From: Limnobaculum xujianqingii
GTDB lineage: Bacteria > Pseudomonadota > Gammaproteobacteria > Enterobacterales > Enterobacteriaceae
Length of the DNA: 64,000 nucleotides
Direction of reading: 5' to 3'
Assembly (NCBI RefSeq): GCF_013394855.1
Contig: NZ_JABMLK010000002.1
Span: 1,550,001-1,614,000 of the forward strand
Shown: one piece after another, positions 1 to 7,560 of the stretch
Position numbering within the stretch: the stretch's first letter is position 1
Layout: every line of letters begins with the position of its first letter
Notes under the pieces: model-generated
The model's database searches: none
Told to the model about the DNA's origin: nothing
What the model saw: only the letters and a program-made list of their open reading frames with translations
Program-made: the position numbers and the translations under genes

Positions 1-1393
1 TTTTAAGTATTTCTGCTGCGCCGCCTTCACCGGATATTTTTCCGTTGGTTTGCTTTAGTGTTTCAATAATATGCCTTTTTACGATTTCGTTAAGAGGTAA
101 AATAGGCTGTCTGATATCCGGATAGTTTTTGTCATATTCTCCGGGTTTGATATCCAATATATTGGTTGCGGAAGAGATAATTGCTTTTTCCAAACGGGCA
201 ATCAATTCCGAAATATTCCCTGGCCAGTCATAGTTTAATAGTAATTGTTGAAAGCGAGTGGAGAGCAGTGGTAACTTGTGCTGACGGCTTTTCCCCAGCT
301 TTAATAAGTAGTGTGTTACCAGTTCAGGAATATCTTCGCGGCGTTGTCTCAATGGAAGCAAAGTAACGCTCAGGCAGAACAGATTATAATAGCGAATACA
401 CCTTAATAAATTACCGGGATCGGTATGTACCGGTTTCAGTTGAGTTTGAGTAATTAAAATACGCGTACTATTACTCTTCTCTTTATAAATCTGGATGTTT
501 TTAATTAGCTGACTGCATATTACTTCTGGCAGACATTCTATATTTTCTATCAGTAACGTTCCTCCGTCAGCATATTCAAACAGGGTGTTATCTTTCAGCA
601 TGGCTTCAGTTAGCGTTATCACCTTAGTGTTTTGATCGGGTGTGGTAATAAATAGCGTCAGGGTTTCTGAATATAATGCTGCTAACAGTGACTGAGGACT
701 TGCTGATTGTTGGTGCAGGTGGTGCGCCAGCATCGATTTACCGCTGCCTTTCTCACCATAAATCATTATGGCTTGCTGGCTTTTAGCGATAGATGGAAGC
801 CGGCTAAACAGCGCTGCCATCGGGCTATTTTGAGCAGAGATAAATCCGTCAGGCAATTTTCCCCGATTGCCTGATGAGGGCAGGTGGGCATACTGTGTGT
901 GTGGATTTTGTTCATTGATCAATTTCAACTGTGATAGTGCACGTGATGCTAACAGAGAAAACGATCCGCGCAGTGATTCCACCAGTTCAGCGTGTTCAGG
1001 TTGAAACGCATTACTCTTATAGCTAAAAAAGACCACGGCACCCAATCGAATATCATCCACCTTCAGGCGCATTACGATGGCTGACTTCACTTTACGAAAG
1101 TGATGCTTAATCACGTAGTCAGTCAGCGGATCGTCAGCCAGTCGATTAAGAATAGTGGTGGTGAAGTTATCGCTAACAATAAATCGCGACAGAACATGAA
1201 TCGGGATGGAGAGTACATTCAGCTTTATTCGACTGCGGTTGCGGGTAGCGAGGGCTAAAAACTGAATGCTTTGGATATCATCACGGTAGTAATTAAGAAA
1301 AATGCCATCAATAGGAAACGTCTCCGGCGCAGCCTGAATACAGGCGGAGATCGCTTTCTCGAGTTGAAGAGTACTGCACAAGGCTTCATGCAT
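1..1393 (-). CDS. DhaR/FhlA-like regulator with degenerate AAA+ domain (3' end beyond window)
   Basis: The gene starts at 1393 with an AAGGA site upstream and runs off the left edge, so the stop is missing. The first 150 or so residues look like a GAF-type sensory domain. An AAA+ domain follows, with a good Walker A (GEKGSGKS, residues 213-220) and then the typical WPGN motif of enhancer-binding proteins. The start of a FhlA/NorR-type helix-turn-helix is visible at the edge. Two things are odd. The Walker B region reads GGTLLIENIE (usual form GGTLFLDEIG), and the stretch between the Walker motifs has no GAFTGA sigma-54 contact loop. E. coli DhaR, as I recall it, has similar losses and works with sigma-70. 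The protein probably controls the operon at 7313-1896, on the same strand, but this is inferred only from position. Confidence 0.75.
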   Translation of the reverse strand, partial: MHEALCSTLQLEKAISACIQAAPETFPIDGIFLNYYRDDIQSIQFLALATRNRSRIKLNVLSIPIHVLSRFIVSDNFTTTILNRLADDPLTDYVIKHHFRKVKSAIVMRLKVDDIRLGAVVFFSYKSNAFQPEHAELVESLRGSFSLLASRALSQLKLINEQNPHTQYAHLPSSGNRGKLPDGFISAQNSPMAALFSRLPSIAKSQQAIMIYGEKGSGKSMLAHHLHQQSASPQSLLAALYSETLTLFITTPDQNTKVITLTEAMLKDNTLFEYADGGTLLIENIECLPEVICSQLIKNIQIYKEKSNSTRILITQTQLKPVHTDPGNLLRCIRYYNLFCLSVTLLPLRQRREDIPELVTHYLLKLGKSRQHKLPLLSTRFQQLLLNYDWPGNISELIARLEKAIISSATNILDIKPGEYDKNYPDIRQPILPLNEIVKRHIIETLKQTNGKISGEGGAAEILK

Positions 1394-1895: not shown

Positions 1896-3536
1896 CTAGT
1901 CGTTACCATTCTTATCCTTATGCCGGTGATAACCATCCAACATCCCTTTCAGCAAGGCGGTCAGGCTGTCGCCTGTAGTACACAGATAGAGATGAACCAA
2001 CAGGAACAATAACGACACAGCGGCCAGCAGATAGTGGGTATAGGCCACTAACTGTTTGCCCGGAAGGCCAAATATTAATTCAGGGGTGTTTTCCGGATAC
2101 AGCATCAACAGACCCGTGGCGATAAGTAATGGCACTATCAGGTACATTACGCCAACATAGCCTAATTGTTGCAGAGGATTAAATTTACTCTGCGCTGAAG
2201 GGTGCTCCGGATGGACTTCTCCACGGAATATGCCAAACAGATAATAGCGAGTCTGGCGCAGCAGACGCCCCAACAGACCGTTAAGTTTCACTACATAGTG
2301 ATGACCATTACCCAGCAGGTTCACCCCAATAAACAGCAGCCAGACGGCACACAGCGTAAGGCCAATGATATTGTGCAGATCGGCCCAGGTTGCCAGTTCA
2401 CCTTGACTAAAGTGCATTGCAACACCTGATATCAATAGCAGAATAAAGCAGAGTGCATTCAGCCAGTGCCATATCCGAACCGGTAAGGTATACAGATAGG
2501 TTTTATGCCATTGACCACCAGATTGTGTTTTGCTGATGACCAGACGTAATAAACCGTGTAGCGCAAGAATAAGCAGCAGGGCAGTCGCCAGCCACATAAT
2601 AGCGCGGTCCAGTCGTACATCACCGTTGGCACCAATCAGGTAGCTGTTTTTAAACAATGAGCCGTTAACCCATTGAACCTCTTGCTGTGCCGGAATTCCA
2701 CCCAACGAGTTTAGTTTATTCTGCAGAGATTTATCATCAAACAGCCCCTGATTCAGCAGGCTACCAGCGATGTTTTGCTCTGTTGGTGCAAAATGGCGAC
2801 GTTGAACCAGAATAGATTCATCACTGTGGCATTGATTACAACTAACACTCTCTTTTGCCGGCACAATATTGTGCAATGTCAGATCGTTGCTGCCGGCGTG
2901 GCAGTCAATGCAGCGTAATGAGCCCAGATGCAAAGCGGCATTCGGAATAGACGCGTGAGTCAAATCCTGCTCTGTTACTTTTTTGCCGCCAGAAAGCGCC
3001 TGATATTCTACCGCTCGGGTGTGGCAGTCAGTACACAAAGCATTAGAGGAGGCAACCTGTTGCACGGTAGGTTTGGTTATCACACTGCATTGCATGGTAT
3101 GTGCATCATGGCAGGATTCACAACTGAACTTATTCTTTCCATCCTTATCAATTTTGCTGATGTGAACACTGTTTTTCCATGCATTGGTGATTTTGTGCTG
3201 TACCAGCCCGTGACAACTTTCACAGCTGTTAGTGGCTACAGTGGTTTGCGTATGAGGAAGCGCCTCAAATCCGGCGTTGCCTTGCTCGCTCTGATGACAG
3301 GCAACACAAGGTACCGTGGCGTGAACGCTCTCCTGATAGGCTTCTTCTGCAATAAACAGTTTTGCCCCTGCATTATCAGAAGTTACCGCATGGATATCAC
3401 TGTCACTATGACAACTCAGACACTGGCTATTGTTGACTTCAGCTGCCAGAGCTCCATGGCTCAGAGTGAGCAACCACAGCAGGCTCAGTGAACGGAGCAG
3501 GTGCCCCAGCCATTTCCCCATTGATATTGTTTTCAT
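1896..3536 (-). CDS. Heptaheme cytochrome c fused to membrane cytochrome b (quinol dehydrogenase-like)
   Basis: This 546-residue protein has an N-terminal signal sequence. Seven CXXCH heme c motifs follow in the first 240 or so residues (CLSCH, CVACH, CESCH twice, CTDCH, CIDCH, CNQCH). The C-terminal half has about five hydrophobic helices with histidines placed as in hydrogenase/formate dehydrogenase-type cytochrome b (IWHWLN, DLHNIIG, YTHYLL, LVHLYL). A GAGGA site precedes the ATG. It is the last gene of a four-gene operon, 10 bp after the tetraheme cytochrome gene. It most likely takes electrons from the quinol pool and passes them to that cytochrome. The three-gene arrangement of flavoprotein, tetraheme cytochrome and cytochrome c/b resembles Wolinella fccABC as I remember it. 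Confidence 0.85.
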   Translation of the reverse strand: MKTISMGKWLGHLLRSLSLLWLLTLSHGALAAEVNNSQCLSCHSDSDIHAVTSDNAGAKLFIAEEAYQESVHATVPCVACHQSEQGNAGFEALPHTQTTVATNSCESCHGLVQHKITNAWKNSVHISKIDKDGKNKFSCESCHDAHTMQCSVITKPTVQQVASSNALCTDCHTRAVEYQALSGGKKVTEQDLTHASIPNAALHLGSLRCIDCHAGSNDLTLHNIVPAKESVSCNQCHSDESILVQRRHFAPTEQNIAGSLLNQGLFDDKSLQNKLNSLGGIPAQQEVQWVNGSLFKNSYLIGANGDVRLDRAIMWLATALLLILALHGLLRLVISKTQSGGQWHKTYLYTLPVRIWHWLNALCFILLLISGVAMHFSQGELATWADLHNIIGLTLCAVWLLFIGVNLLGNGHHYVVKLNGLLGRLLRQTRYYLFGIFRGEVHPEHPSAQSKFNPLQQLGYVGVMYLIVPLLIATGLLMLYPENTPELIFGLPGKQLVAYTHYLLAAVSLLFLLVHLYLCTTGDSLTALLKGMLDGYHRHKDKNGND

Positions 3537-3546
3537 AACATCCTCA

Positions 3547-3978
3547 TCAGGGTTTCATATTCGGGTATTTGAATAAATGGCAGCTGTTGCAATAGACCTG
3601 TGATGGCTTGTGTTCGCTATGGCAGGTGCTACAGGGAACATCTTTACCGTAGTGAATCGAGTTATGCGGATTAGGTTCCGGATGACCCTCTTTTGACTTC
3701 GGTTCCGTCATGGCGGCAATTTGATCGAGGCTGCCGTGGCAGGTCAGGCAATTACTGTCGTTAGCGGGTGTGGTTGGTGTTTTGGCTCCGTGACAAAGCT
3801 GGCAACTGGCATCACGACCTGTTGCCGCCAGCGGCTGATGATAGGGCTTAATCGTGATGTCACTTAGCTTCTGCTGAAATGCTTTGGCATCATCAGCCGT
3901 TGGTTTATCGTTTTGCGCCCAGACCGAAAGGCTAAACAGCGCAACGAAGATGACGGCGATACGTTGATAGATAGACAT
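3547..3978 (-). CDS. Periplasmic tetraheme cytochrome c
   Basis: This 143-residue protein has a signal peptide ending near VWAQ and four CXXCH motifs (CQLCH, CLTCH, CSTCH, CNSCH), with extra histidines available as distal ligands. The spacing fits the small tetraheme cytochrome domain found in Shewanella flavocytochrome c3, here encoded separately from its flavoprotein. The frame is open further upstream to 4065, but that start would overlap the flavoprotein gene. The ATG at 3978 has a GGGAG site just before it and begins a proper signal peptide, so I chose it. It should shuttle electrons from the membrane cytochrome (next gene) to the FAD protein (previous gene). Confidence 0.88.
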   Translation of the reverse strand: MSIYQRIAVIFVALFSLSVWAQNDKPTADDAKAFQQKLSDITIKPYHQPLAATGRDASCQLCHGAKTPTTPANDSNCLTCHGSLDQIAAMTEPKSKEGHPEPNPHNSIHYGKDVPCSTCHSEHKPSQVYCNSCHLFKYPNMKP

Positions 3979-3994
3979 AAATTTCTCCCGTCCC

Positions 3995-5617
3995 TCAGGC
4001 GTTGTCTGAATCTGAAGTGCTAAACAATGGATTGGCGGTTTGAGTGGCAACATGAGCACCGGCAATACGGCCCAGTACTAATCCATCAGCAACAGCGCAA
4101 CTGCCTAACCGACTGGCTCCATGAGGACCACCAGTCACTTCGCCTGCGGCGTAGAGCCCTTGAATAGGATTACCCGTAAGTGAATTTAATACCTGGGCAT
4201 TTGGGTTAATCTGTACTCCACCCATGGTGTAATGCACTTTGGGCCAGACGCGGACGGCAAAATAGGGGCCTTCGGCCAGTGAAATTGCCCGGCTAACATC
4301 TTTTCCTAAGCGATCGCCACTACCGTTAGCGACGGCGGTATTGTACTCATCCACCTCTTTTTGCAGATTCTCATAAGGGAGAGCGAAGTGGTCCGCCAGC
4401 TGTTTCAGGGTGTCAAACTGCCAGGCAACCTGATATTTCAATGCAGCAGGCAAACTTTGGGCATTTTTTGCCCCTTCCTTATTGGTGAAGCAGATGGGAT
4501 AGACGGGTTTTCCTTGCTCATCGCGCTGAACAAGGATGGCATCTTCACGAGCTTTACGGTCAGCCAGCTCGTTGGTAAAACGTTTACCGGTACGCGCATC
4601 TACCATAATTCCCATGGGATAACCGGCAATGGTATTGAACTGAGAAACGTTACCGAAGCCTTTCTCATCCGGAGACGACCAGGGGCCCAACTGAATCAGA
4701 TCGAGCTGTACCGGCGTTGCACCAATTTTTAGCATTGCCAGAATGCCTTCTGCGGTTGCTCCCTGATGGTTGGTGGTGTCTAAGTCGCTAACCAGTTGAG
4801 GGTCCTGAATCATACGAAAACGCAGATCGTTGCTGAAGCCTCCGCTGCACATGATTACTCCATAGCGAGCACCATAGTTTTTTACTAACCCGGAGTTCTC
4901 ATCGGGGAAGTAGTAGTTCTCTTTTACTTCAAGGCCAACCACAGTTTGCTGATTATCCTGAATAAAGGACTCAAACTTACAGCGGGACTTAAAGATAACC
5001 CCCAGCTTTTGTGCCGACTGACGCATTGGCATAATAATTCCGGCACCGGAGCTTTCAACGGTTTGCAAAGTGCGGGGAACAGAATGTCCCCCAAAGTGTT
5101 GAACAAAGGGTTTATAGCGCACACCGTGCTTGAGGGTGAACTCATAGGCTTCCTGAGTGCCGTTAACCAGTACGTGCAAAATATCCCGATGGTTCAATCC
5201 ACGGCCAGCTTTCAGCATGTCCTGATACATCAGTTCTGGTGAGTCCTGAATACCGGCCTCTTTTTGCTGTGGGGAACCGGCGACGGCAAAAGCGCCGCCG
5301 TTGATGGTTGAGTTACCGCCAAATACCGCCATTTTCTCTATAACCAAAACGCTCAGGCCGTGGCTTTTTGCTTCCAGCGCGGCAGCAAGTCCGGCAAAGC
5401 CGCTGCCAACCACAATCACATCATAGATTTGATGAAAACGCGTTCTGCCACCGGTGACCGTCTCTGGCACATTGATCGTTACCGGTGCTGCCTGAGTGGG
5501 TGCCATAGTCAGAGACATAACGCCTCCCGTTGCCAGCAAAGCTCCTTTCGTCAGAAAGCTGCGCCGGGTTGGGTTATTAATGCTGTCTGGCGGTAACGTT
5601 TTTTTGCTGTTACTCAT
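3995..5617 (-). CDS. Tat-exported FAD-dependent enoate reductase-like flavoprotein (fumarate/urocanate reductase family)
   Basis: This 540-residue protein starts with a twin-arginine signal (TRRSFLTK, Arg18-Arg19). An FAD dinucleotide-binding motif follows (VVGSGFAGLAAA, about residues 70-82), and the C-terminal signature TMGGV...GLYAAGEVTGG is that of the FAD_binding_2 family. Arginines in ADRKARED and in HGASRLGS match the catalytic and carboxylate-binding arginines of Shewanella fumarate reductase. The position of its substrate-binding His365 (in IQAHP) is Gly311 here (IQLGP), so fumarate is an unlikely substrate. There is no heme domain and no FMN-binding domain, so electrons must come from the tetraheme protein encoded next. 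The substrate is not fixed by sequence; an aromatic enoate such as urocanate or cinnamate is plausible given the lyase-like gene 19 bp upstream. Confidence 0.85.
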   Translation of the reverse strand: MSNSKKTLPPDSINNPTRRSFLTKGALLATGGVMSLTMAPTQAAPVTINVPETVTGGRTRFHQIYDVIVVGSGFAGLAAALEAKSHGLSVLVIEKMAVFGGNSTINGGAFAVAGSPQQKEAGIQDSPELMYQDMLKAGRGLNHRDILHVLVNGTQEAYEFTLKHGVRYKPFVQHFGGHSVPRTLQTVESSGAGIIMPMRQSAQKLGVIFKSRCKFESFIQDNQQTVVGLEVKENYYFPDENSGLVKNYGARYGVIMCSGGFSNDLRFRMIQDPQLVSDLDTTNHQGATAEGILAMLKIGATPVQLDLIQLGPWSSPDEKGFGNVSQFNTIAGYPMGIMVDARTGKRFTNELADRKAREDAILVQRDEQGKPVYPICFTNKEGAKNAQSLPAALKYQVAWQFDTLKQLADHFALPYENLQKEVDEYNTAVANGSGDRLGKDVSRAISLAEGPYFAVRVWPKVHYTMGGVQINPNAQVLNSLTGNPIQGLYAAGEVTGGPHGASRLGSCAVADGLVLGRIAGAHVATQTANPLFSTSDSDNA

Positions 5618-5636
5618 AATAATTCCCTTTCAACCT

Positions 5637-7313
5637 CTATTTCTGGCTGTGATAACTGGCAACAATATCGGCACCGTTTTTAATGTCATCGCTGTAAATA
5701 CGGTCCTGATCGACAAAAGGAACCACTTTGCGATAAGCCTGATACAGCGCTTCGGTTTGTTTACCCATGGCGATTTTCGGCATGATCTCTTTACGTAAAT
5801 CGATAGCCTGAGTGGAGTGCAGTAGCTCCAGACCGTAAATCACATTCATGTTGTCGACAATGCGCTGTAAGCGCTGAGAGGCGTAAAGATTATTGGTAAA
5901 GGTATCTTCAATGGTGCCAGCCATTACTTGACCGTCGAGAGAAACCGGATTGGCTAAATCAACAATCTGGGAGTGCAACGCCACCTGCGGTTTTTGGATA
6001 GCACCAAATGCATGGCCAGGATTATCTTTCGCCGTCAGGAAACGACTTAGACCGGTGAAATGATCATCGGATAAGTGCAGCGTGCGCTGTACGCTGTTAT
6101 GGGAAAGATGGCCTAATGACAGCGAGAGTTTCTGCACTGCTAAAGCCAGCGGTAATGGCTCAAAGTTGGCGCTGGGGTAGATGGCGCCTTTAACGTCTTT
6201 GCCTTGTACATAGTATTGCTTAACCTGACTGTTGTCGGCGTACTCTTGTGTAGCATCCAGAATCACGGCAGGGTTATCGTCGGAGCTGTTCATTTGAACC
6301 GAGAGCATCTGTTGGGCATTAACCAAATCGCGTTTTGCTTCATTTAAGGCAAACACCGTAGTGCGGAAAGAAAGTGGATCTTGCAGAGGGCGCGCCTCGT
6401 TCTTTTCCCACAGGTAGGAACCGGTCAGAACATCACGGATTGATTTGGCGCTGTCATCCAATCCGGAGAATGGACGAACTTTAATATTTTGTGGCAGCAC
6501 CGGAGAGACATTACCGTTCAGACCTTCCAGACTCAGGCCAAATACCACCGGCGTAATATCAACAATCTGCTGTGCATCCATAATCGCTTTTGCCGAGTAA
6601 GCAGTGGATATAGCGTTGGTAGACAGAATAGAAAGAGCATCTTTACCAATAGGGTCTAACGGCGTGATACCGGCATTTTTCAGCGCCTCTCCGGCAGGAA
6701 TAACTTTGTTGTTTACCGTAACTCGCCACTCTCCCATCATGGCATCTCCAATATGGGAGGCCAGAGTGATATCTGCTTCGCCGACCGAGCCTTGAGAAGG
6801 GACGACAGGCGTGATTCCCTGATTGAGGAATTTCTCATACAGTTCAGCCACGTAAGGCTGAGCTCCGGTCGCGCCAGTGAGCATGGTGTTTAAACGAATG
6901 ACCATGGCCAGACGTACCATATCCACTGGCATATCCGGACCTACACCAGCACCGTGGGCGCGTAGCGCATTACGGTTAAAGGCTTTAGAGGCCTCTACCA
7001 CTTCCGGGCTTAAACGACCGTGGGCATCAAACAGCGATTTATCTTTGTTCAGGCCAACGCCTACGGTTAAACCGTAAACCGGGACACCCTGCTCAGCCGC
7101 CAGCATCAGTAGCTGATTAGATTTTTTTACTCGCTCCATCGCGACAGGATCGATTTTTACACTTTTACCCTGCGCCGCTACGCTCCAGGCATCGGCCAGG
7201 GTCAGATTATGCCCGCTAAGCACCAGAGATTCCTGTGCCATTAAACTTCCACTAAACAAACCGCCAGCGACCAGAACACCGGTAACAAGGGTAAACATTG
7301 CGTTATTTTTCAT
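5637..7313 (-). CDS. Exported histidine/phenylalanine ammonia-lyase family protein lacking the MIO triad
   Basis: This 558-residue protein aligns along its length with HutH/PAL: YGLTVGVG (for YGVNTGFG), VVPSQGSVG, QDPLSFRT, NSSDDNP and PVSLDG. Unusually for this family it has a signal peptide (cleavage near LMAQES), so it should act in the periplasm. The Ala-Ser-Gly triad that cyclises into the MIO cofactor should follow GSVG, but the sequence there is Glu179-Ala180-Asp181. The active-site Asn of the LLNGT motif also appears to be Ser (SILSTNA), while the Tyr and Arg are kept. I chose the ATG at 7313 because GGGGA lies 7 nt before it; the upstream ATG at 7328 has no such site. It is first in the operon. 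It may be a MIO-independent lyase or isomerase, or a binding protein; the reaction cannot be assigned. Confidence 0.8.
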   Translation of the reverse strand: MKNNAMFTLVTGVLVAGGLFSGSLMAQESLVLSGHNLTLADAWSVAAQGKSVKIDPVAMERVKKSNQLLMLAAEQGVPVYGLTVGVGLNKDKSLFDAHGRLSPEVVEASKAFNRNALRAHGAGVGPDMPVDMVRLAMVIRLNTMLTGATGAQPYVAELYEKFLNQGITPVVPSQGSVGEADITLASHIGDAMMGEWRVTVNNKVIPAGEALKNAGITPLDPIGKDALSILSTNAISTAYSAKAIMDAQQIVDITPVVFGLSLEGLNGNVSPVLPQNIKVRPFSGLDDSAKSIRDVLTGSYLWEKNEARPLQDPLSFRTTVFALNEAKRDLVNAQQMLSVQMNSSDDNPAVILDATQEYADNSQVKQYYVQGKDVKGAIYPSANFEPLPLALAVQKLSLSLGHLSHNSVQRTLHLSDDHFTGLSRFLTAKDNPGHAFGAIQKPQVALHSQIVDLANPVSLDGQVMAGTIEDTFTNNLYASQRLQRIVDNMNVIYGLELLHSTQAIDLRKEIMPKIAMGKQTEALYQAYRKVVPFVDQDRIYSDDIKNGADIVASYHSQK

Positions 7314-7560
7314 TTTTTGATTCCCCATAATAAAGTTATGGGTATTCTAATTATTTATGGGTAGGTGGACTTAGAGGCTACGGGCACATCCAGAGCGGCG
7401 ATTTTTGATATTTCGTCACTGGGATTGGGAAATGCGGTGTTAAGAAGATAGTCAGTAGTGAGTGGTTATTGAGAAGGCTTAAGATAGAAGTGAGAATCGA
7501 AACAAGACGTTGCCAGCAATCCTGAAGCACAGGAAAGCTGACAAATCAGATTGCGTATTG

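Follow-up and report, generated by a model that had tools for sequence, protein, structure and literature searches.

A predicted ergothioneine-respiration operon in Limnobaculum xujianqingii and related lyase-reductase gene pairs

Ergothionase, a lyase that works without the 4-methylideneimidazole-5-one (MIO) cofactor and yields trimethylamine and thiourocanic acid, has a suggested role in nitrogen supply, according to the sections of PMC13405746 that deal with this enzyme. In the system of Zhou, Hatzios et al. (2025), as outlined in the same sections, the work is shared between Clostridium symbiosum and Bacteroides xylanisolvens, and cross-fed thiourocanic acid sustains the growth and ATP synthesis of B. 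xylanisolvens (PMC13405746). On the reductase side, the residues R411, H520, and R560 of the urocanate reductase UrdA are described as binding the carboxylate or donating a proton, D388 and E177 as facing the imidazole, and Y373 as separating urocanate from fumarate reductases (PMC7921117, sections on the active site). Here we describe a four-gene operon found in a 64,000-nucleotide stretch of the Limnobaculum xujianqingii genome (assembly GCF_013394855.1, contig NZ_JABMLK010000002.1, positions 1,550,001 to 1,614,000; hereafter, the window). It encodes an exported MIO-less lyase, a flavin reductase, and two multiheme cytochromes and, judging from the comparisons below, is probably an ergothioneine-respiration operon, in which periplasmic ergothioneine would be split into thiourocanate and trimethylamine and the thiourocanate then respired.

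This assignment builds on computed features: the gene order, the ergothionase homology of the lyase, the absence of the MIO triad, the linkage of the genes, and the association of lyase class with reductase pocket. The substrate, product, direction of electron flow, and growth benefit of the operon are predictions. The exported lyase would eliminate trimethylamine from periplasmic ergothioneine with no MIO cofactor, yielding thiourocanate, and the flavoprotein exported by twin-arginine translocation (Tat) would reduce the double bond of thiourocanate, giving thioimidazole propionate. Electrons would pass from quinol through the cytochrome b/heptaheme protein to the tetraheme cytochrome and on to the flavoprotein. 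An earlier first-pass annotation of the window had already proposed that the lyase generates the acceptor within the periplasm, where the acceptor is then reduced, an idea that gains support from the conserved linkage and from the association of lyase class with reductase pocket.

Relationship of the lyase to ergothionase

Among PDB sequences, the first match to the window lyase is the ergothionase of Treponema denticola (6s7j/6s7q; E value of 3e-95, with the next match at 1e-43). The AlphaFold2 model of the lyase, with a mean predicted local distance difference test (pLDDT) score of 85, likewise retrieves 6s7j first in Foldseek (2.4e-35; next other enzyme, 3.7e-28). The Ala-Ser-Gly triad that gives rise to MIO is absent: the lyase reads GSVG-EA-DIT, with Glu-Ala in place of the triad and one residue fewer. 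Models of histidine ammonia-lyase (HAL) score the protein at 276 bits against a cut-off of 524 and at 266 bits against 539. With the triad absent and the curated models far below their cut-offs, histidine or phenylalanine ammonia-lyase was rejected as its identity.

In the active-site region, 16 of 16 hand-picked positions are identical in the window lyase and T. denticola ergothionase, an agreement weakened by the fact that 13 of them (including Y85, H125, R322, and E474) are invariant across all 28 aligned family sequences. The telling positions are therefore E184 and, above all, the Q445-K446 pair, which the window lyase has in common with the T. denticola enzyme. The ergothionase structure paper reportedly names a lysine and a glutamate. 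By sequence and modelled structure, the window lyase is an ergothionase homologue, from which the predicted leaving group would be trimethylamine, the predicted substrate ergothioneine, and the acceptor thiourocanate. In these respects the first-pass annotation needs correction: it had called the protein an exported ammonia-lyase homologue, so that ammonia and not trimethylamine would leave; it had proposed histidine, urocanate, phenylalanine, and cinnamate for docking, where ergothioneine/thiourocanate is now the predicted pair; and it had known of no described system with such an exported, MIO-less partner, although MIO-less ergothionase is already on record.

The operon lyase is the single PF00221 protein encoded in the window genome and is 97% identical to the lyase of Limnobaculum allomyrinae. 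Enterococcus (loci L015, L017, and L053) and Escherichia coli (P0033) have MIO-less lyases that read LHV or LHI in place of the IQK of the window protein; the Enterococcus proteins are without a signal peptide, and genes for a CoA-transferase, a transporter, and a member of the nitronate monooxygenase family are among the neighbors of the one in L015. Relatives of the lyase are also encoded on large plasmids of Sinorhizobium, Paracoccus, Burkholderia, and others (43 to 47% identity among the 15 matches listed); 27 of the 31 plasmid records are predicted to be conjugative, and two matches are annotated as histidine ammonia-lyase. An apparent tetraheme cytochrome-lyase fusion, P0099, was not used: its N terminus is unlike a signal, a heme site is seemingly lost, and it may be an artefact of gene calling or assembly.

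Linkage of lyase and reductase genes

Scanning genome contigs with a sequence pattern yielded 133 confirmed lyase relatives, the best 80 matches of which, representing 79 loci, were analyzed; this set leans to window-like proteins. Classified by the residues at positions 445 and 446, the best lyase per locus is of the QK type in 63 loci, EK in 8, ED in 5, and HV in 3, and a sixth ED protein is the second lyase of L052. A reductase gene lies within 1.5 kb on the same strand in 54 of the 63 QK loci, counting L070 with its interrupted gene, and in L054 it is 2.4 kb away, behind a second lyase; reductases are absent near all 8 EK and all 3 HV loci. The loci with the pair come from Budviciaceae, Hafniaceae, Enterobacteriaceae, Sutterellaceae, Shewanella, Ferrimonadaceae, one record titled Marinobacter, and a Campylobacter, and include many near relatives, above all in Shewanella. 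The gene set was found again in many genera and is therefore not a matter of chance. The operon of Escherichia sp. MOD1-EC7003 had no match in complete E. coli genomes by megablast, a search that needs roughly 85% identity.

Two of these loci have peculiarities of their own. In Ferrimonas senticii (L054:8917-12633), two tandem lyase genes with dissimilar sequences are followed by one reductase gene. The lyase of Campylobacter gastrosuis (L070) groups with the EK lineage, yet the reductase after it has the LGPW motif and not SQFNT, a combination that counts in favor of ergothioneine respiration; this reductase gene (L070:3943-5481) contains one in-frame stop codon, and the adjoining lyase open reading frame is uninterrupted.

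Co-occurrence was examined in 77 genomes of one genus, inferred to be Shewanella and chosen since an order-wide sample was too poor in lyases (3 of 295 genomes) for such a test. A QK-type lyase is found in 22 of the 77 genomes, the matching reductase in 23, and both in 22, with the aligned parts of the two genes 48 to 106 bp apart; there is one reductase-only genome (G295, without a lyase at an E value of 1e-100) and no lyase-only genome. Here, a QK-type lyase was assigned by 43 to 45% identity to a QN query plus position, with the motif read in G281 only, and a matching reductase shares 77% identity or more with the G281 protein, the next class being at most 49% identical. Fisher's exact test gives 2e-18 for the QK lyase with this reductase and 7e-5 for the QN lyase with UrdA, the genomes being related and not independent. 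The first-pass annotation had called for a genome survey of this kind and had made conservation of the lyase gene with the redox genes one of the points on which its proposal would stand or fall; both the 63 QK loci and the 77 genomes show the linkage to be conserved.

Among the 295 genomes of the window's order, the reductase is found in 14 (E value of 1e-100), 11 of which hold merely paralogues of 39 to 47% identity. Genome G030 of this order has an LGPW/SQFNT reductase, a tetraheme cytochrome, and an activator-like gene without a lyase, a gene set that would suit a cell living on thiourocanate from others.

Lyase genes outside respiratory operons bear on the substrate. Locus L085 (genome G185, also of the window's order) encodes a GAIQK lyase (44% identity) whose operon-mates are an S-methyl-thiohydantoin desulfurase-like gene (PF06032 and PF20906), a urocanase-family gene, and a transporter. 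The same gene set surrounds the EK lyase of L072 (Serratia), and in the QK locus L065 a urocanase-family gene lies about 3 kb from the lyase. Desulfurase-type genes would be expected where the ring carries sulfur, and these neighborhoods may point to a thioimidazole substrate.

Reductase pockets and alternative readings

The window reductase scores 480 bits with TIGR01813 (cut-off, 285), and UrdA is its nearest relative among PDB sequences. Its R354, H462, and R503 correspond to R411, H520, and R560 of UrdA, which are thus kept, and the ring-side Y373 and D388 are not, G311 standing at Y373 and I, Q, or T at D388, according to the alignment used. A Pfam search did not find PF04205, the N-terminal covalent-flavin mononucleotide (FMN) domain of UrdA. 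All 54 full-length QK-linked reductases keep R411, H520, and R560, with E177, F243, and Y373 replaced by A, Q, and G, respectively. What stands at D388 varies with the alignment (I or A in one, Q or T in others), so that the loss of Asp alone can safely be read from this column. The active-site His of fumarate reductases (H in Ifc3 at UrdA position 373) is Gly in the window protein and in all 54. Given these ring-side differences, plain urocanate or fumarate reductase was rejected as the identity of the window protein. A QSGPW-type reductase gene and a tetraheme cytochrome gene adjoin a DcuA/DcuB-family carrier gene elsewhere (L082:4357-7830), and that reductase is perhaps a paralogue for a dicarboxylate.

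The ED-linked reductases have the UrdA ring-side residues and R411 in 6 of 6 cases, with H520 and R560 in the five where they are readable (one sequence is cut short), and the L044 protein has the FMN_bind domain PF04205. In a quick tree made without bootstrap from 5 of the 6 ED-linked and 22 QK-linked sequences with very distant outgroups, the ED-linked reductases group with UrdA (Shimodaira-Hasegawa-like approximate likelihood ratio test [SH-aLRT] value of 99) and the QK-linked ones form their own clade (98). The ED lyases concerned are second exported lyases of Sutterellaceae (L052, L044, and L055-L058), encoded beside a UrdA-type reductase; they are candidate hercynine lyases that would feed the formation of imidazole propionate.

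Lyases without the lysine sit near UrdA-pocket reductases in Shewanella as well as in Sutterellaceae. Besides its QK pair, Shewanella genome G281 encodes a second exported lyase with N for K446 (GSVGLSDI); a reductase that has the full set of UrdA pocket residues lies 4.2 kb away. Such a QN lyase (at least 70% identity) is found in 8 of the 77 genomes, the residue having been read in four (L088, L092, L093, and L096). UrdA, present in 26 of the 77, is on the same contig in all eight, at 146 to 206 bp in four and at 3.4 to 4.8 kb in four, and the reductases near the QN lyases of L088, L092, and L096 keep the UrdA pocket. On the tree, the ED and QN lyases form clades of their own, and no fewer than three changes are required to explain the presence and absence of the lysine. 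A third lyase class, with no NKD motif, is found in 7 of the 77 genomes, 6 of them with a reductase match 85 to 500 bp away; in the four loci read (L090, L091, L094, and L095), the neighboring reductase is of a third kind, YQLGPW...SFF, with a tetraheme cytochrome adjoining, and in G350 no adjoining reductase was found above the threshold.

These pairs could belong to a wider class of periplasmic lyase-then-reductase respirations, a proposal that we put forward tentatively, at just short of an even chance. The acceptor would be produced locally by a MIO-less betaine lyase, and a flavin reductase co-evolving with this lyase would be tuned to the acceptor. QK and LGPW would serve for ergothioneine, ED/QN and a UrdA-type reductase for hercynine (through a hercynine trimethylamine-lyase not yet described, which would supply the formation of imidazole propionate), and the third Shewanella pair for another betaine.

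For the window operon itself, the pair might act on another betaine or a modified histidine, such as hercynine, ergothioneine sulfonate, or an aromatic amino acid betaine, with a different enoate as the acceptor. At least five lyase classes differ at positions 445/446, several of them paired with different reductases, and the window lyase is only 37 to 38% identical to the proven ergothionase of T. denticola. Specificity may change within that range, because the LH-class lyases of Enterococcus and E. coli, which are without the lysine, are closer to the window lyase (55 to 57% identity). However, Q445-K446 is common to the window class and the T. denticola enzyme, a lyase with the same motif lies in a thiohydantoin desulfurase operon, and the classes near urocanate-type reductases are the lysine-less ED and QN, which together make another betaine unlikely, although a serious candidate. 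The lyase could also be an unrelated passenger beside an ordinary fumarate or methacrylate-type reductase, as its flavoprotein and tetraheme cytochrome are split in the manner of Mrd/Mcc and Wolinella FccA, which the relevant sections of PMC4427408 present, and the related QSGPW reductase of L082 adjoins a C4-dicarboxylate carrier gene. The tight linkage in 22 of 22 lyase-bearing genomes of one genus and in loci of Enterobacterales, Sutterellaceae, and Ferrimonadaceae, and the Gly in place of the fumarate-reductase histidine in 54 of 54 reductases, render this improbable. Histidine respiration, by a periplasmic histidine ammonia-lyase and a urocanate reductase, would agree with the PF00221 and UrdA homology and is very improbable, given the missing MIO triad, HAL scores far below cut-off, the change of UrdA Y373 to G, and the loss of D388.

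Several further observations weigh against ergothioneine respiration. Residues 470 to 473 of the lyase model, beside E474, are poorly predicted. Eight of the 63 QK loci (L061, L063, L064, L065, L066, L068, L069, and L073) are without a reductase match in the DNA examined, some of them ending at contig ends, and L081 has a reductase with the same motifs as that of the window and no lyase. Each lyase class is largely one clade, and the loci are not independent. Export is not special to respiration, because the EK lyases, which are without a reductase, also have hydrophobic N termini (8 of 8 loci, by a crude measure). In G310, a lysine-less QN lyase stands beside a third-kind reductase (YQLGPW...SFF), and UrdA, with E177 changed to Q, is further away, which counts against a simple rule connecting lyase class and reductase pocket. 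Because a gene next to the operon resembles sigma-54 activators, the window was searched for sigma-54 promoters; with 20 matches against 23 expected (two mismatches allowed), there is no excess. FNR-like sites number 8 against 3.8 expected, and none of either kind lies just upstream of the operon.

Operon parts, electron supply, and comparison with known systems

The features of the operon are collected in Table 1. The gaps are 19 bp between lyase and reductase, 16 bp between reductase and tetraheme cytochrome, and 10 bp between the two cytochrome genes, and GGGGA precedes the likelier lyase start at 7313. Judged by eye from the translations, the lyase N terminus is a Sec-type signal and that of the reductase a twin-arginine stretch, RRSFLTKG. 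At its C terminus, the cytochrome c/b protein has a PhsC-like cytochrome b, with a score of 256 bits for NCBIfam PRK15006 (cut-off, 204). Open reading frames, motifs, and Pfam matches thus bear out the same-strand cluster of an exported MIO-less lyase and three redox genes, 10 to 19 bp apart, that had first been noticed.

Table 1. Features of the predicted ergothioneine-respiration operon and its neighbor (window coordinates)
Feature	Coordinates	Strand	CXXCH motifs	Pfam	Remarks
MIO-less aromatic lyase, exported, predicted ergothionase (ergothioneine trimethylamine-lyase)	5637..7328	-	0	PF00221	likelier start 7313
Flavin adenine dinucleotide (FAD) enoate reductase, Tat-exported, predicted thiourocanate reductase	3995..5617	-	0	PF00890	TIGR01813; best PDB match UrdA
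Tetraheme cytochrome c, periplasmic, presumed electron donor of the flavoprotein	3547..3978	-	4	PF14537	
Heptaheme cytochrome c fused to PhsC-like cytochrome b, predicted quinol dehydrogenase	1896..3536	-	7	PF01292 and multiheme families	
AAA+ activator-like protein, possible regulator, downstream of the operon	1..1393	-			cut by window edge; no GAFTGA motif

Matches to the heptaheme-cytochrome b gene come from 11 of the 79 loci (L002-L009, L012, L013, and L078), all of them Enterobacterales with the lyase-reductase pair. In Campylobacter (L070), a NapC/NirT-type gene replaces it, and no match was found in the Shewanella or Ferrimonas flanks; Shewanella uses CymA. Such modular electron-supply genes would fit quinol as the donor.

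The best NCBIfam match of the activator-like protein is DhaR, below the DhaR cut-off. The GAFTGA motif is also missing in 6 Enterobacterales loci and in L010 and is present in L016, L028, L033, and L042 (11 loci checked). In 52 of the 63 QK loci, a gene for an AAA+ activator-like protein is present no more than 8 kb from the lyase; because the identity outside Budviciaceae is 22 to 42%, its putative regulatory link to the operon is weak.

If ergothioneine respiration is true, the operon would offer a complete, genetically tractable route for respiring this dietary antioxidant of fungal origin in Proteobacteria, including gut Sutterellaceae and Enterobacterales. The kit would split ergothioneine outside the inner membrane, with one piece replacing oxygen; release of trimethylamine would be predicted, and reductase specificity would be readable from the neighboring lyase gene. 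Related bacteria seem to hold matching kits for related compounds, and the matched pairs suggest that an exported lyase, and not cytoplasmic histidine ammonia-lyase, may feed some of the UrdA enzymes, which make the imidazole propionate linked to diabetes. Ergothionase and thiourocanate cross-feeding have already been published, as the sections of PMC13405746 cited above relate. The novelty appears to lie in the operon, which arranges known parts in a single all-periplasmic unit, and above all in the family of paired lyases and reductases. Searches of an open-access library turned up no account of the operon, and one may still be in print.

To our knowledge, the split flavocytochromes Mrd/Mcc and FccA come with no lyase. 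Geobacter Mrd/Mcc, Wolinella FccA with its heme subunit, and the window operon are alike in having a Tat flavoprotein and a separate tetraheme cytochrome (PMC4427408, same sections), and in the window the chain is completed by the heptaheme-cytochrome b fusion. The window reductase is of the same superfamily as the fumarate reductase Fcc3/Ifc3 but has no fused heme domain and has Gly for the active-site His. With UrdA it shares the flavoprotein fold and the carboxylate/proton-transfer residues, whereas it lacks the FMN_bind domain, has a tetraheme partner, and does not conserve the ring pocket. Ergothionases are known from T. denticola (6s7j/6s7q) and Burkholderia sp. HME13. The T. denticola enzyme and the window lyase are alike in fold, missing MIO, Gln-Lys pair, and predicted reaction, and only the window lyase is encoded with a respiratory reductase and cytochromes. 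As described, the gut thiourocanate system turns the ergothionase product to anaerobic energy metabolism and takes two species to do so (PMC13405746, sections on cross-feeding); the window operon would put the product to the same use, with both steps predicted in one periplasm and from one operon.

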